This document shows, in pieces, positions 5,272 to 33,872 of a stretch of 64,000 nt of DNA. Position 1 is the first letter of the stretch; each line of letters opens with the position of its first letter. A model generated the notes under the pieces. That model had not been told where the DNA came from. It did no database searches and was given only the letters and a program-made list of their open reading frames with translations. The position numbers and the translations under genes are program-made. This DNA is from Patescibacteria group bacterium (GTDB lineage: Bacteria; Patescibacteriota; Patescibacteriia; 2-12-FULL-60-25): positions 806,001 through 870,000 of the forward strand of contig JAQTXZ010000001.1 of assembly GCA_028688515.1 (NCBI GenBank), read 5' to 3'.

Positions 5272-5529
5272 ATGAGCATCACTATTCAGTTCAAAGATCT
5301 GCTGCGCCACGCCAAGCACCTTGATGTGATAGGCCTCGAGGAAAGGCGCCTGCTAAATTCCATTGAGGTGTCCGAAAGAGATCGAATGCGGGCATTGGAT
5401 GAGACGACGATCTCTTTCGCTGTAGATGATGGACAAAGAATGAACGTGGCATTCGCGGGCGTTGTCAGTACTATGCCATCCAGACGAAGCCAATCTCATT
5501 CACCCGACCCGCCAGACAAGAACTCTTAG
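5272..5529 (+). CDS. small hypothetical protein (85 aa)
   Basis: An 85-residue frame 39 bp after the previous gene, with a GGGAGA ribosome binding site seven bases before the ATG. The product is charged and ends in a polar serine/proline-rich tail (SRRSQSHSPDPPDKNS). No domain is recognised. It probably shares the transcript from the promoter at 4722 and is closed by the terminator at 5553. Confidence 0.6.
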   Translation: MSITIQFKDLLRHAKHLDVIGLEERRLLNSIEVSERDRMRALDETTISFAVDDGQRMNVAFAGVVSTMPSRRSQSHSPDPPDKNS

Positions 5530-7504: not shown

Positions 7505-7512
7505 GCAAATAG

Positions 7513-7575
7513 AAAACCCCCATTCCTATTCCTTGATGGAAACGCGGCGATGAACGCCACAGTTCGGATTGGGGG
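7513..7575. other. three-way-junction-like structured segment
   Basis: CCCCCATTCC pairs with GGATTGGGGG (one mismatch). Between them lie two further hairpins, TTCC-ttgat-GGAA and GGCG-atgaa-CGCC, so the segment folds as a compact three-way junction. It follows the DUF3800 stop. Read on the minus strand the outer stem is followed by TTTTC, so a terminator role is possible. I do not match it to a known RNA class. Confidence 0.4.
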
Positions 7576-7717
7576 CAATTCCAGTATCAATGTACCTAAA
7601 AATATCGGTTCGGTCAAACACCCGTAAGGCGCATGTTGGCAGGTCTTGCATTATCGTCATATCTTGGGTATTATTATGCCCGTCGTCCGCCTACGCTTAA
7701 GCTACGGTGGACCTTCG

Positions 7718-29955: not shown

Positions 29956-30519
29956 CTACTGATTGAGCGGGACACGCTCACCCGTCGCTTTAAAGTGAGC
30001 GAGGATCAGACCTGCCACCAGACCTGCTCGGCCGAAACCACTCATGTGGTGAGCAGGCAGTTCGAGTTCGGTGTGGAGACCGGCGAGTAGATTGAGCTGC
30101 TCACTCTTGGTCTTCGAGGTGCTATCTCGCAGGATGCGCGGCACCCAGAAGACAAGACTGTCCGAGGTCGGCGTGTCCTCAAATCTCCAGTCCTGCAAGT
30201 AGTTGAAGTCCTTGCGGCAGGGACCGGACTTGGGGGCGTGGGTCTTGAGGGTGTAGCCGACGCGGACTCGATAGCAGATCGGAGTCGTCACAGGCACCTT
30301 GTGCTCAATAGCCAGCTTGCGGTACTTGCCGACGATCACCTTGGCGACTTCCTCGACGTACTTGCCGCTCTCGACGAGCAGAGCGACCGCTTCGGCGTCG
30401 GTGAGAGGGATAAAGTACTCCGGCTCGACGATGCTGACAGGAGATTTGGCGAAGGCTGCCCTTCGGAGCTTTACGCGAAGAAGGAAACAAAAAGACCGCA
30501 AGGTCTTTTTTGTTTTCAT
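29956..30519 (-). CDS. hypothetical protein, possibly 5'-truncated
   Basis: A GC-rich open frame of 187 residues. The body looks like a real soluble protein (EYFIPLTDAEAVALLVESGK, VPVTTPICYRVRVGYTLKTH, LAGLHTELELPAHHMSGFGR), but I do not recognise a family. The nominal ATG at 30519 lies inside a hairpin AAAAAGACC-GCAA-GGTCTTTTTTG (30490-30512) and has no ribosome binding site, so translation from it is doubtful. The real 5' end may be lost or start internally. It borders the recombinase/RNA array and may have been broken when that element arrived. Confidence 0.5.
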   Translation of the reverse strand: MKTKKTLRSFCFLLRVKLRRAAFAKSPVSIVEPEYFIPLTDAEAVALLVESGKYVEEVAKVIVGKYRKLAIEHKVPVTTPICYRVRVGYTLKTHAPKSGPCRKDFNYLQDWRFEDTPTSDSLVFWVPRILRDSTSKTKSEQLNLLAGLHTELELPAHHMSGFGRAGLVAGLILAHFKATGERVPLNQ

Positions 30520-30634: not shown

Positions 30635-30663
30635 TTGACAAAAACCCCAATCTTTGCTTAAAT
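30635..30663 (+). promoter_or_regulatory. promoter for the RNA array and recombinase
   Basis: TTGACA (30635-30640), exactly 17 bases, TTAAAT (30658-30663). The predicted start near 30670 is about 15 bases before the first hairpin of unit 0, so one transcript could run through unit 0, the recombinase and the downstream units. Confidence 0.65.
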
Positions 30664-30684
30664 GACCAATCTTTTAAATCGTGA

Positions 30685-30915
30685 CCTCTTTTGAGAAGCT
30701 GACTCCTTGTCTGCTTTTCAAAAGAGGGTGCGTTGATTGTTGTGTCGAAAGACGACACGACCATTGCACCCTCAACCTTTTGGCGGACGAAGAGACAGAT
30801 GCGAAAAATCGCGACGCAAACTTTGTCCACCACTAATCTCGCGGGACGCAGGTAGGGTTGTTTGTAGAAACGATTGTCCTGGTGTCCTGCAGGGTGCATG
30901 GGCAATCATGCACCC
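30685..30915 (+). ncRNA. multi-loop RNA unit 0 of the recombinase-associated array
   Basis: Unit order: hairpin A (CCTCTTTTGA...TCAAAAGAGG), then three loops B, C, D, then a closing hairpin GGGTGCATGG-GCAA-TCATGCACCC. Loop B: stem GAGGGTGC/GCACCCTC, 5' side 30733-30743, tip GTC-GAAA-GAC 30744-30753, 3' side 30754-30765. Loop C: stem GGCGGAC/GTCCACC, 5' side 30790-30800, tip GCGA-AAAA-TCGC 30801-30812, 3' side 30813-30824. Loop D: stem GCGGGAC/GTCCTGC, 5' side 30849-30859, tip GTTT-GTAG-AAAC 30860-30871, 3' side 30872-30883. Every loop has 11 bases on the 5' side and 12 on the 3' side; sequences differ from unit to unit while stems are kept. Confidence 0.8.
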
Positions 30916-30916
30916 A

Positions 30917-31002
30917 CCCTCTTCATAGCTTTCGAGTTTCGAGAACTGCGAAGAGGGTGCGAAAACTAGAATGTCGAAAGATGACAACAGAGCTGCACCC
31001 TC
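30917..31002 (+). ncRNA. RNA unit 0', 5' part (hairpin A and loop B)
   Basis: Hairpin A of the second type (CCCTCTTC...GAAGAGGG) and loop B: 5' side 30962-30972, tip GTC-GAAA-GAT 30973-30982, 3' side 30983-30994, closing GCACCCTC 30995-31002. Loop C is missing: after it comes the recombinase leader and gene, and a D loop of the same geometry reappears just after the gene stop (32766-32815). The recombinase gene therefore seems to occupy the place of loop C in this unit. Confidence 0.75.
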
Positions 31003-31105
31003 ACTTTCTCAATAAATGTCCCGTTTTCGGACGGGATGTAGGGACGTAAAATTCCCGATTGTTCCTAAACATGTCTCTTCGGGGACGAAACAAGGAGAGC
31101 GGCAA
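31003..31105 (+). promoter_or_regulatory. structured leader of the recombinase mRNA
   Basis: Contains TCCCGT-TTTCGG-ACGGGA (about 31019-31036), then GGGACG...GTTCCTAAAC (a D-like tip) and a GTCTC-TTCG-GGGAC hairpin just before the AAGGAGAG ribosome binding site. The layout suggests a leader derived from a degenerated D loop that may control recombinase translation. Confidence 0.5.
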
Positions 31106-32761
31106 ATGCCGGAAACCAGAACCGTAGGCATCAGGCATCGTGTCAAGAAGACAGCCGAGGGCGAAGCTCGGCCCACGCAGGTCGCCATTGTCGCGAACAA
31201 CAAGGTCGTGACTCTGGATCTCGAGGACGAGCGCGCCGAGCTGGACTTCGTTCTCGGCAAGTTCCCGATCAAGTTCCGCGACGTGGAACCGGACGAGGAC
31301 CTGACCGTCTTCGCCAAGCATCACATCAAGTGGCGCAAGGCAAAGAAAGACGAGGACGTCTCGAACGTGCCCGAAGCGCACAAGCAGCTGATCGAGAAGA
31401 AGTTGCATGTGGCGCATCGGGTGCCGGCGGCTTACGACGGGCTCAAGGCCGGAGACGTTGTCGCCATGTCGCTGGGCGGGTCCGGCGACTACCTGGCTTT
31501 CGCGCTTTCACGCCAAGCTGACGTAGTCGGCGCCCACATCTTTCGCATCCCGCCGTTCCACCTCAAGGACAAGCGGCCGAACGCGGATAAGGACAAGGAC
31601 GCCGAGCTCATGGCTGAACTGGTGCGAGACCAGCGCCAGCTCTTCCGGCCTGTCACGCCGCGCGACCGCGATCAGCTACTGCTCCGCATCCGCTACCGCA
31701 GCTTTGAGGAGGCTATGAAGGCGCGAATCGCAACCGAGCAGCGGCTGCGTCAACGGCTCATCGGCGAGATCTTCACCCAGCCGGACGGGCTCTACCCCGA
31801 AGGCGATCTCGAAGATGCGTTCAAGGAATCCAAGGCCAATGACAAGATCCTCGTGTCGCAGAAGGCGGAAGAAGCAGCGCGCGAACGCGACATGCTCGCG
31901 GCGCTCGAGAAACTTGAAGCCTTCAAGGTCATGGGGCCGGTGGAAGGCGTGGGCACGCGCATCGCAGGGAGGCTGACGGCTGCCGCGCTGGTAAACCTCG
32001 GACGATTCATGGTCGTGCCTGACCAGGCCGAGATTGAGAAGCTGCGCTTGGAGGCCACGGAATGGGCCGAGGACGCGGTTGCATTGGTCAACGTCGAGCG
32101 CAAGCCGAACGAAGCGCGTCGCGAGTACTACGCAAGGGTCGAGAAGGTACTGCAGTCCTGCGGACATCCGACACGAGCATTGGAGCTCGAACAGGCCATC
32201 GCTTGTCTGGACCAAATCCGCAAGCTCAAGCGCCAAGCCGAAGCCAAGAGCTGCAACAAGTTCAAGGCATACTGCGGCGTACACGTGCTCACGGGCGGCA
32301 AGCACGGCGATCAGCCCGAGGAATTCCAGTTCCCTCGCAGGCGAAGTGATGCGGTTGCCAACTGGAATGGCATTGCTCGCCAGGCGTTCTTTCTGGTCGT
32401 GGACCAGTTCAACAAGCGGGCGGAGAGCGAATGGGGCAAGTACCTTCGCCGGATGAAGTCCAACCAGCGCGGGATCCACCCCGAACCCATCAAGGTTCCG
32501 TCGCTAAACAGGGACGGCACACCCAAGGTCAATAAGAAGACCGGCGAGCCCATCCTTGTCACCCGCTACTCGGACGGCCACATTCACAAGCGCGCCATCT
32601 GGCGTACGGCCACGCGCTTTGCCGAATGGTTGTTCCGCGAACTGATCAAGTTCGAGAACGGTGCTACGGCCAAGCTGCCGGCCAAACCGCCCGAACCGGC
32701 TACCGCAGCAACCCTGCCATCGCCGAAGTTCGAGGCGACGACGACCGCCCTTTCAGCCTAG
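31106..32761 (+). CDS. IS110-like (DEDD/transposase_20) recombinase
   Basis: The start at 31106 has AAGGAGAG seven bases upstream; 551 residues, longer than most IS110 transposases (about 330-450). The GGSGDYLAFALS...IFRIPPFHLK...DKDKDAELMAELVRD run (residues 124-174) resembles the end of the RuvC-like DEDD domain, with Asp161/163/165 as metal-ligand candidates. A helix-hairpin-helix GPVEGVGTRIAGRLTAAAL (residues 277-295) begins the IS110 C-terminal domain, which continues after a 70-residue insertion with FKAYCGVHV, PRRRSDAVANWNGIARQAFF and GHIHKRAIWRTATRFAEWLF. The canonical first Asp (GIDVSK-type) and the C-terminal catalytic Ser-Gly are not evident. The gene is GC-rich and embedded in a structured RNA array. 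The family call is from pattern recognition. Confidence 0.75.
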   Translation: MPETRTVGIRHRVKKTAEGEARPTQVAIVANNKVVTLDLEDERAELDFVLGKFPIKFRDVEPDEDLTVFAKHHIKWRKAKKDEDVSNVPEAHKQLIEKKLHVAHRVPAAYDGLKAGDVVAMSLGGSGDYLAFALSRQADVVGAHIFRIPPFHLKDKRPNADKDKDAELMAELVRDQRQLFRPVTPRDRDQLLLRIRYRSFEEAMKARIATEQRLRQRLIGEIFTQPDGLYPEGDLEDAFKESKANDKILVSQKAEEAARERDMLAALEKLEAFKVMGPVEGVGTRIAGRLTAAALVNLGRFMVVPDQAEIEKLRLEATEWAEDAVALVNVERKPNEARREYYARVEKVLQSCGHPTRALELEQAIACLDQIRKLKRQAEAKSCNKFKAYCGVHVLTGGKHGDQPEEFQFPRRRSDAVANWNGIARQAFFLVVDQFNKRAESEWGKYLRRMKSNQRGIHPEPIKVPSLNRDGTPKVNKKTGEPILVTRYSDGHIHKRAIWRTATRFAEWLFRELIKFENGATAKLPAKPPEPATAATLPSPKFEATTTALSA

Positions 32762-32765
32762 ACTT

Positions 32766-32847
32766 GGGGACGATGCATCGCTTGTTCTGCTAGAACGACC
32801 AGGAGGCTGTCCCCCTCCCCCGCACCAATTCACTTTGGTGCGGGGGC
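32766..32847 (+). ncRNA. RNA unit 0', 3' part (loop D and terminal hairpin)
   Basis: Five bases after the recombinase stop: stem GGGGAC/GTCCCC, 5' side 32773-32783 (11 bases), tip GTTCT-GCT-AGAAC 32784-32796, 3' side 32797-32808 (12 bases). This is the exact geometry of loop D in the other units. It is followed by a very stable hairpin CCCCCGCACC...GGTGCGGGGG ending at 32847, which probably closes a processing or transcription unit. Confidence 0.75.
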
Positions 32848-33080
32848 CCTCTTTTGAGAAGCTGACCATCTGTCGGGTTTTCAAAAGAGGGTGCGACCGA
32901 ACCCTTGTCGAAAGACGAGCGGCGGGATGCACCCTCACAATCTTGGCGGACGTTTGGTTTGTTGTGCAATGCGCGCAAGAGACTGTGTCCGCCGCTAATC
33001 TCGCGGGACGAAAGGCGGTATGTTTCCAACGAAACGAATCTGCCACTGTCCCGCTCGGGTGCATGGGCAACCATGCACCC
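32847..33080 (+). ncRNA. multi-loop RNA unit 1
   Basis: Hairpin A of the first type (CCCTCTTTTGA...TCAAAAGAGGG). Loop B: 5' side 32896-32906, tip GTC-GAAA-GAC, 3' side 32917-32928. Loop C: stem GGCGGAC/GTCCGCC, 5' side 32953-32963, tip GTGC-AAT-GCGC, 3' side 32975-32986. Loop D: stem GCGGGAC/GTCCCGC, 5' side 33011-33021, tip GTTTC-CAAC-GAAAC, 3' side 33036-33047. Closing hairpin GGGTGCATGG-GCAA-CCATGCACCC 33057-33080. The constant linker CGCTAATCTCGCG joins C and D. Confidence 0.8.
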
Positions 33081-33081
33081 G

Positions 33082-33311
33082 CCCTCTTCATAGCTTTCGA
33101 GTTTTCGAGGACTGTGAAGAGGGTGCGATTGGGTCGATGTCGCAAGACGATTCTCAGCCTGCACCCTCAACCTTTTGGCGGACGAAAAGCAAAATGCAAG
33201 CAATTGCGTTGTCAAGGCTGTCCGCCGCTAATCTCGCGGGACGTCCATATATACGTTCTGTGGAACGACCTCCACTTTGTCCCGCTCGGGTGCATGGGCA
33301 ACCATGCACCC
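33082..33311 (+). ncRNA. multi-loop RNA unit 2
   Basis: Hairpin A of the second type. Loop B: 5' side 33128-33138, tip GTC-GCAA-GAC (GNRA kept), 3' side 33149-33160. Loop C: 5' side 33185-33195, tip GCAA-GCAA-TTGC, 3' side 33208-33219. Loop D: 5' side 33244-33254, tip GTTC-TGTG-GAAC, 3' side 33267-33278. Closing hairpin 33288-33311. Loops C and D are nearly the same as those of unit 4, while loop B is quite different. Confidence 0.8.
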
Positions 33312-33312
33312 G

Positions 33313-33547
33313 CCCTCTTCACAGCTTTCGAGTTTCGAGAACTGTGGAGAGGGTGCGGTAGAATATGTGTCGAGAGACGATTCTAGAACTGCACCCTCAA
33401 ACTTTTGGCGGACGAACGGTCTCATGTGAAAATCACGTCGATGATCGTGTCCGCCGCTAATCTCGCGGGACGAAAAGGATGGTGTTTTCAAACGAACAAT
33501 GTGTCGTCCTGCTCCCCGACTCCGATTTGCAAGAATCTGAGTCGGGG
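33313..33547 (+). ncRNA. multi-loop RNA unit 3
   Basis: Hairpin A of the second type. Loop B: 5' side 33358-33368, tip GTC-GAGA-GAC, 3' side 33379-33390. Loop C: 5' side 33415-33425, tip GTGA-AAA-TCAC, 3' side 33437-33448. Loop D: 5' side 33473-33483, tip GTTTTCAAAC, 3' side 33494-33505, stem GCGGGAC/GTCCTGC. Instead of the usual closing hairpin it ends in CCCCGACTC...GAGTCGGGG (33514-33547), like the strong hairpin that precedes unit 1. Confidence 0.8.
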
Positions 33548-33781
33548 CCCTCTTTTGAAAAGCTGACTGTCTGTCGGATTTTCAGAAGAGGGTGCGACGT
33601 GGGTGTAGTCGAAAGACGATGGGTCTTGTGCACCCTCAACCTCTTGGCGGACGAAACGAAGAATGCAAGCAATTGCGTTGTCGAGGCTGTCCGCCACTAA
33701 TCTCGCGGGACGTACATATATATGTTTCTGTGGAACGACCTCTACTTTGTCCCGCTCGGGTGCATGGGCAACCATGCACCC
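33548..33781 (+). ncRNA. multi-loop RNA unit 4
   Basis: Hairpin A of the first type. Loop B: 5' side 33597-33607, tip GTC-GAAA-GAC, 3' side 33618-33629. Loop C: 5' side 33654-33664, tip GCAA-GCAA-TTGC, 3' side 33677-33688. Loop D: 5' side 33713-33723, tip GTTTC-TGT-GGAAC, 3' side 33737-33748. Closing hairpin 33758-33781. A last degenerate hairpin CCTTCTTT...AAAGAGGG (33783-33823) ends the array. Confidence 0.8.
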
Positions 33782-33843
33782 ACCTTCTTTAGAACTCCTA
33801 ATGATTAGTGGTTCCAAAGAGGGTAAGAGAAAAGTACGAAAAA

Positions 33844-33872
33844 TTGACAACCTCGCCATATCATGCTATACT
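33844..33872 (+). promoter_or_regulatory. sigma70-type promoter for rnj
   Basis: TTGACA (33844-33849), 17-base spacer, TATACT (33867-33872), one of the best promoters in the window. It leaves a 5' leader of about 230 bases before the RNase J start; the leader is AT-rich with no clear structure. Confidence 0.75.

Follow-up and report, generated by a model that had tools for sequence, protein, structure and literature searches.

A chromosomal array of paired-guide stem-loops around a gene for a predicted nuclease-dead TIGR-Tas protein in Patescibacteria

What does a single protein gene do in the middle of an array of guide-like RNA loops? The question is raised by a locus at positions 30685–33826 of the window, a stretch of 64,000 nucleotides from a Patescibacteria group bacterium (GenBank assembly GCA_028688515.1, contig JAQTXZ010000001.1, positions 806,001 to 870,000 of the forward strand; coordinates below are those of the window). 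The gene, here called tas (31106–32761, plus strand, 551 amino acids), was taken in the initial annotation for an IS110-like recombinase served by several expanded bridge RNAs. According to the present analysis, its product is most likely a TIGR-Tas protein from the Patescibacteria clade of TasR with a dead RuvC domain, as that clade is outlined in the main text of Faure et al. 2025 (PMC12045711). The locus as a whole is read as a chromosomal stem-array TIGR-Tas system in which a predicted nuclease-dead TasR would carry out RNA-guided DNA binding without cutting (probability of about 0.8). The observations on which this reading is based are the family membership of the protein, the loss of its catalytic residues, the anatomy of the array, its co-occurrence with the gene, the hypervariability of the guides and the complementarity of their 3′ ends.

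The protein consisted of a RuvC-like domain (residues ~5–183) without the first catalytic Asp, a coiled coil and a Nop/Transposase_20-like domain, the last of which contained an insertion (residues ~302–384) that was shared with some homologues and absent from the shorter ones. NCBIfam TIGR_Tas_endo was the best family for all of the first ten homologues (best value 8 × 10−39, compared with 1 × 10−14 for IS110), and the window protein itself matched NCBIfam TIGR_Tas at 5.1 × 10−27 versus 8 × 10−8 for IS110. A profile of 39 homologues compared with solved structures gave TasR (9mty) at 6.3 × 10−26 and IS621 at 1.1 × 10−4. The AlphaFold model of the window protein (predicted local distance difference test, pLDDT, of 89.6) also had TasR as its best match (Foldseek 8.5 × 10−8; Z = 20.0, 4.5 Å over 287 residues), followed by IS621 (Z = 17.0), RuvC (Z = 9.2, residues 3–183) and Nop5 (Z = 6.2). 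Position 10, the site of the first Asp (G-I-D in RuvC), was G-I-R in 32 of the 39 homologues, the other seven having V, Q, T or H there, and none was acidic at this site (0/39); position 123, motif-aligned with the Glu that is the second acid of IS110, was Leu in 37 of 39, and D165 was the sole invariant one. Since the first Asp is lost throughout the family and the second position is Leu in nearly all members, the nuclease is predicted to be dead. Thus, the distant kinship of the protein with IS110 pointed out in the initial annotation stands, whereas its designation as an IS110-like recombinase does not.

The main text of Faure et al. (PMC12045711) devotes one sentence to a TasR clade of Patescibacteria (Candidate Phyla Radiation, CPR) with a dead RuvC domain and insertions in the Nop domain. 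As far as that account goes, the clade agrees with the window in the protein family, the dead RuvC, the Nop insertion and the host group, as well as in stem-loop arrays that flank the gene and carry two spacers of ~9 nucleotides per hairpin, each between a box C and a box D. The window protein was filed in this clade as a probable member because a CGA-N9-UG pattern occurring twice per loop, the dead RuvC, the insertion, the stem array and the Patescibacteria host all fit. According to the same source, the 9-nucleotide spacers of TIGR arrays are bordered by box C (CCA) and box D (UG), each box being closed by a C-G pair; stem arrays show the pattern two times in every hairpin and have palindromic ends. 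The stem-loop array of TIGR-TasA on a Peromyscus gut contig, described there, likewise consists of tandem dual-spacer stem-loops, and its processing into single stem-loops was shown by the authors; TasA itself is without a RuvC domain, whereas the window protein retains a degenerate one.

A search with free side lengths revealed 17 loops at 30724–33755, each composed of a closing stem, 12 nucleotides, an inner hairpin, a further 12 nucleotides and the closing stem. Each side read G-A-N9-T, leaving nine variable bases, and the CGA-N9-UG of the loops is a box C–spacer–box D element. The constant length and the variable stretch on both sides had been recognized earlier; the sides measured 12 and 12 bases rather than 11 and 12, and the variable part nine bases rather than about ten. 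The number of loops, also given earlier, was borne out by this search and by a covariance model (trained on 35 sequences, three of them window loops), which found all 17 with E from 3.5 × 10−7 to 0.017. The six units of ~230 bases were present at 30685, 30917 (split by the gene), 32847, 33082, 33313 and 33548. Three loops belonged to unit 1 and three to each of units 3–6, and one was found on either side of the gene in the split unit 2; the parser recognized five complete B-C-D units. Box scores of at least 6 of 8 were reached 16 times in the 3.5 kb array and 14 times in the remainder of the window on both strands. The earlier view of the loops as resembling guide RNAs, with a pair of variable guides apiece and many RNAs to one protein, was sound.

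The covariation of the outer stem proved real. In 384 modules from 47 loci, chosen by boxes and inner hairpin without an outer-stem criterion, the first six outer pairs were paired at frequencies of 0.96, 0.92, 0.87, 0.85, 0.83 and 0.84, as against 0.82, 0.62, 0.60, 0.39, 0.41 and 0.51 for shuffled partners (83–96% versus 39–82%). A diverse set of 35 modules, drawn from 18 loci, had a covariation score of 0.871 compared with 0.228 in shuffles; this set had been chosen with at least five of seven outer pairs, so its percentage of paired positions is biased.

When 84,980 species genomes were scanned with a profile, 53 further loci emerged, all but two or three from genomes titled Patescibacteria and belonging to many lineages (a few titles read only "bacterium"), with the array on the strand of the gene in nearly all of them. 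Within 2.5 kb of the gene, 552 modules with 12 + 12 sides were found on the gene strand and 44 on the opposite one (53–57 far away), while the other eight combinations of side lengths from 11 to 13 averaged 24 each in the same zone and orientation; the fixed length is therefore a family trait. The boxes of these modules were conserved (T 96%, G 88%, A 72–77%), and the composition of the spacer positions was nearly random. The protein was encoded in 10 of 380 Patescibacteria genomes and was single-copy in its own genome. A covariance model of one loop had matches in nine of the 380 genomes, eight of which were among the ten protein-bearing ones, and in these eight the matches were at or near the tas locus. 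In the ninth, the loops ran up to the point where the contig breaks off (locus L126); the stretch read there showed no sign of the tas gene, which presumably lies beyond the break. Two genomes with the protein escaped the model when filters were strict, but they did carry 12 + 12 modules (loci L031 and L035). Thus, the units travel with the gene and are not scattered over many genomes that lack it, which would have spoken against the initial annotation. No homologue of the protein was found in viral contigs (single-protein search and profile patterns), and PADLOC gave no match. The gene neighbourhoods had no gene common to all loci and no conserved neighbour such as a methyltransferase. Many loci adjoined housekeeping genes, namely, nusG/rplK, infB, EF-G and gyrB-like genes (named from their translations), in some lineages at the same place, which argues for long residence of the locus in the chromosome rather than for a phage or transposon.

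Comparison of the same loop across the window units revealed 98% identity in the stems and 85% in the linkers as against 29% in the guides, which means that the guides have been replaced and the scaffold kept. The guides were also only 29% identical between the window and locus L027, whose protein is 79% identical and which has a different gene neighbourhood and flanks without DNA similarity to those of the window. Thus, guides are replaced as blocks on retained stems and linkers. Two loci from Uhrbacteria (L029 and L059) had one guide pair in common (18/18; positions 5522 and 4265, respectively) in arrays that could otherwise barely be aligned, and the stem of this shared pair differed in one base pair, G-C in one locus being compensated as A-T in the other. 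In the window, L027, L028 and, less regularly, L036, the loops formed repeated units of three or four, each loop type with its specific stem; in L059, nearly every loop had an own stem.

A second regularity concerned the 3′-terminal bases of guides A and B (A9 and B9), which formed a Watson–Crick pair in 194 of 564 guide pairs, compared with 145.7 ± 9.6 after shuffling within loci, the observed value being reached in none of 1000 rounds. Among 144 position pairs, this was the only associated pair outside the boxes (chi-square p = 1.7 × 10−6). The signal survived a division of the loci into two halves (z = 4.8 and 2.3) and was also seen among loops whose boxes were perfect (94 of 250 versus 64); it cannot stem from the stem criterion, because the hairpin does not place these bases opposite each other. 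TasR cuts with 8-nucleotide 3′ overhangs, as stated in PMC12045711, and the target DNA would therefore consist of guide A and, after it, guide B in reverse complement, with the 3′ ends meeting centrally. This is most simply explained if some targets have a central base pair that is read twice, by one guide on either strand, and duplex DNA is therefore favoured as the target. For the dead-RuvC clade, the main text of that paper describes neither multi-loop units with loop-specific stems nor a gene-split unit, guide replacement or 3′-end complementarity; relative to this text, guide replacement and 3′-end complementarity seem to be new as quantitative findings.

The following course of events is proposed. 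The array would be transcribed and cut at the linkers into single stem-loops, and a Tas dimer would bind each loop symmetrically through two identical anchors of box C (CGA) and box D (UG), placed at the outer stem and at the inner hairpin, respectively. The 9-nucleotide guides would then open a DNA duplex and pair with it, each on a different strand, along a single uninterrupted target of ~17–18 base pairs, with their 3′ ends meeting at its centre. Because no working RuvC site is present, the complex would bind and bend the target without cutting it and would in this way silence or block foreign DNA, while guides would be exchanged and stems and linkers retained. A fuller version, in which a chromosomal nuclease-dead DNA-binding system spread across Patescibacteria has its guides actively rewritten on a fixed scaffold of multi-loop units with loop-specific stems, and in which the central base pair is sometimes common to both guides, is offered tentatively, as a possibility with the odds against it.

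The reading of the initial annotation, according to which an IS110-type recombinase with expanded bridge RNAs pairs target and donor DNA and rearranges the genome at multiple sites, draws on a Pfam DEDD_Tnp_IS110 match (4 × 10−6), on Transposase_20 in 6 of 10 homologues and on IS621 as the second-best fold. Indeed, the IS110/IS621 bridge RNA system (PMC11208160, PMC11208158) shares with the window the fold of both domains and loops with a left and a right guide. However, its DEDD site is active, its single bridge RNA combines a target and a donor loop, and its guides have a common 2-nucleotide core, whereas in the window family the first and second DEDD acids are lost, there is one copy per genome, the loops of other loci are independent tandem modules with no target/donor pair, and a 2-nucleotide core common to both guides was found at 0.076 against 0.062 expected, so an IS110-type core is not present. 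As TIGR-Tas was also the closer family in every profile test, such a recombinase is hardly tenable here. When 457 kb of the own genome, 35.5% of the whole, were searched for composite sites (guide A joined to guide B in reverse complement, with gaps from −6 to +7), guide pairs likewise had no sites beyond chance; as sites were lacking, self-targeting and rearrangement were both dropped as roles. That the system regulates genes of its own cell through RNA guides, with which a stable chromosomal place beside housekeeping genes in several lineages would agree, is very unlikely on the same grounds: were there a perfect own site for every one of the 17 pairs, the probability of finding none in the sample would be 0.0006, and the guides of the window are not conserved in the homologue with 79% identity. 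The guide pair of loops 4D and 6D had no site in the whole of the own genome.

An RNA-guided RNA-binding or RNA-modification system, as a step toward box C/D small nucleolar ribonucleoproteins (snoRNPs), is somewhat less remote, although still improbable. Its Nop domain with a weak Nop5 match and its dead RuvC, like that of Nop5, speak for it, and Faure et al. (PMC12045711) speculated along these lines in their treatment of the dead-RuvC clade. The archaeal box C/D snoRNP does share a Nop domain, a dead RuvC-like domain and paired C/D anchors with the window; however, the structural match is weak, the boxes are UGAUGA/CUGA rather than CGA/UG, and the spacers had no complementarity to ribosomal RNA beyond chance (14 matches for 1138 spacers versus 12.0 ± 3.4 shuffled, with the partial ribosomal RNA of one species used for all loci). 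The missing methyltransferase-like neighbour and the complete turnover of guides between species, unlike that of guides to conserved RNAs, also stand against it, and the 3′-end complementarity makes sense only if the guides read opposite strands of one duplex. Foreign DNA is likely to be the remaining target, by exclusion only.

Several points weigh against DNA binding by a nuclease-dead TIGR-Tas protein. The score of the window protein for TIGR_Tas, 95.3 bits, is below the curated cut-off of 100; the match is broken into two stretches by the insertion, the highest scores (145–155 bits) belong to short homologues, and 8 of 10 further homologues exceed the cut-off, L027 (99.0) falling just under it. 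The presumed inactivity of the nuclease is read from the residues alone. The 3′-end complementarity is partial (34% versus 26%), and Faure et al. (PMC12045711) reported no covariation of an obvious kind between spacers. Composite sites showed no excess over control orientations either in the 457 kb of the own genome or in the own flanks of all loci, and the pair shared by L029 and L059 had no target in either of their genomes or in the 380 relatives. In IMG/VR, this pair matched eight contigs with unrelated genes, which is approximately the chance level; one ungapped match (L111, positions 602–619) fell in a recA-like conserved motif stretch (NTTAIFINQLREKIGVMFG) and is probably due to chance. 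A pooled search of 0.92 Mb gave one exact cross-genome match versus 0.09 expected, which was also taken as chance.

All elements of the array lie on the plus strand. Unit 1 starts with the leading hairpin A (30685–30728), whose 3′ arm is common with loop 1B (30724–30773; guides TGATTGTTG and CACGACCAT); loops 1C (30782–30831; AGAGACAGA and CGCAAACTT) and 1D (30841–30890; AGGTAGGGT and TTGTCCTGG) follow, and the palindromic hairpin E (30892–30915) separates the units. Loop 2B (30953–31002; AAACTAGAA and CAACAGAGC) is upstream of the gene that interrupts its unit, and loop 2D (32766–32814; TGCATCGCT and CCAGGAGGC) is right behind it, starting five bases past the tas stop codon. After a terminator-like separator with a strong hairpin of 12 base pairs (32817–32846), unit 3 comprises its leading hairpin A (32847–32891), which has GAGGG in common with loop 3B (32887–32936; CCGAACCCT and GCGGCGGGA), and loops 3C (32944–32994; TTGGTTTGT and AAGAGACTG) and 3D (33003–33054; AAGGCGGTA and ATCTGCCAC). 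Unit 4 contains loops 4B (33119–33168; TTGGGTCGA and TTCTCAGCC), 4C (33176–33227; AAAGCAAAA and TGTCAAGGC) and 4D (33236–33285; CCATATATA and CCTCCACTT), and unit 5 contains loops 5B (33349–33398; TAGAATATG and TTCTAGAAC), 5C (33406–33456; ACGGTCTCA and CGATGATCG) and 5D (33465–33512; AAAGGATGG and ACAATGTGT). In unit 6, loop 6B (33588–33637; CGTGGGTGT and TGGGTCTTG) is followed by near-copies of 4C and 4D, namely, 6C (33645–33696; AACGAAGAA and TGTCGAGGC) and 6D (33705–33755; ACATATATA and CCTCTACTT), and the array ends with the last separator hairpin and the remnant of a further unit (33758–33826).

In the hairpin opening each unit (30685–30773, 32847–32936 and 33548–33637, loop B included), the 3′ arm GAGGG is at the same time the 5′ strand of the closing stem of loop B, so that the two pairings compete. 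This sharing is also kept in L027, L028 and L036, and the competing pairings at the unit start might act as a switch or mark a site for processing. Just past the array, a good sigma-70-like promoter (11 of 12; 33844–33872, plus strand) was found, which likely serves the downstream RNase J gene. A reading frame of 187 amino acids adjoining the array on the other side (29956–30519, minus strand) had no Pfam or PHROGs match. Elsewhere in the window, an Rfam DUF3800-IX RNA was detected at 7512–7576 on the minus strand (55.1 bits, gathering threshold 36.8).

The case of the window puts right an understandable error, namely, that of taking such genes for IS110 transposases. The authors who described TIGR-Tas left open the role and targets of its nuclease-dead members and the way in which guides are renewed; this locus and its relatives contribute hundreds of guide pairs in named genomes. 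The complementarity of the guide 3′ ends makes DNA binding, and not RNA modification, the leading testable function for the dead-RuvC clade. If the fuller version of the reading, given above as tentative, is true, Patescibacteria would possess an adaptive interference system that does not cut its targets and has no known acquisition genes.

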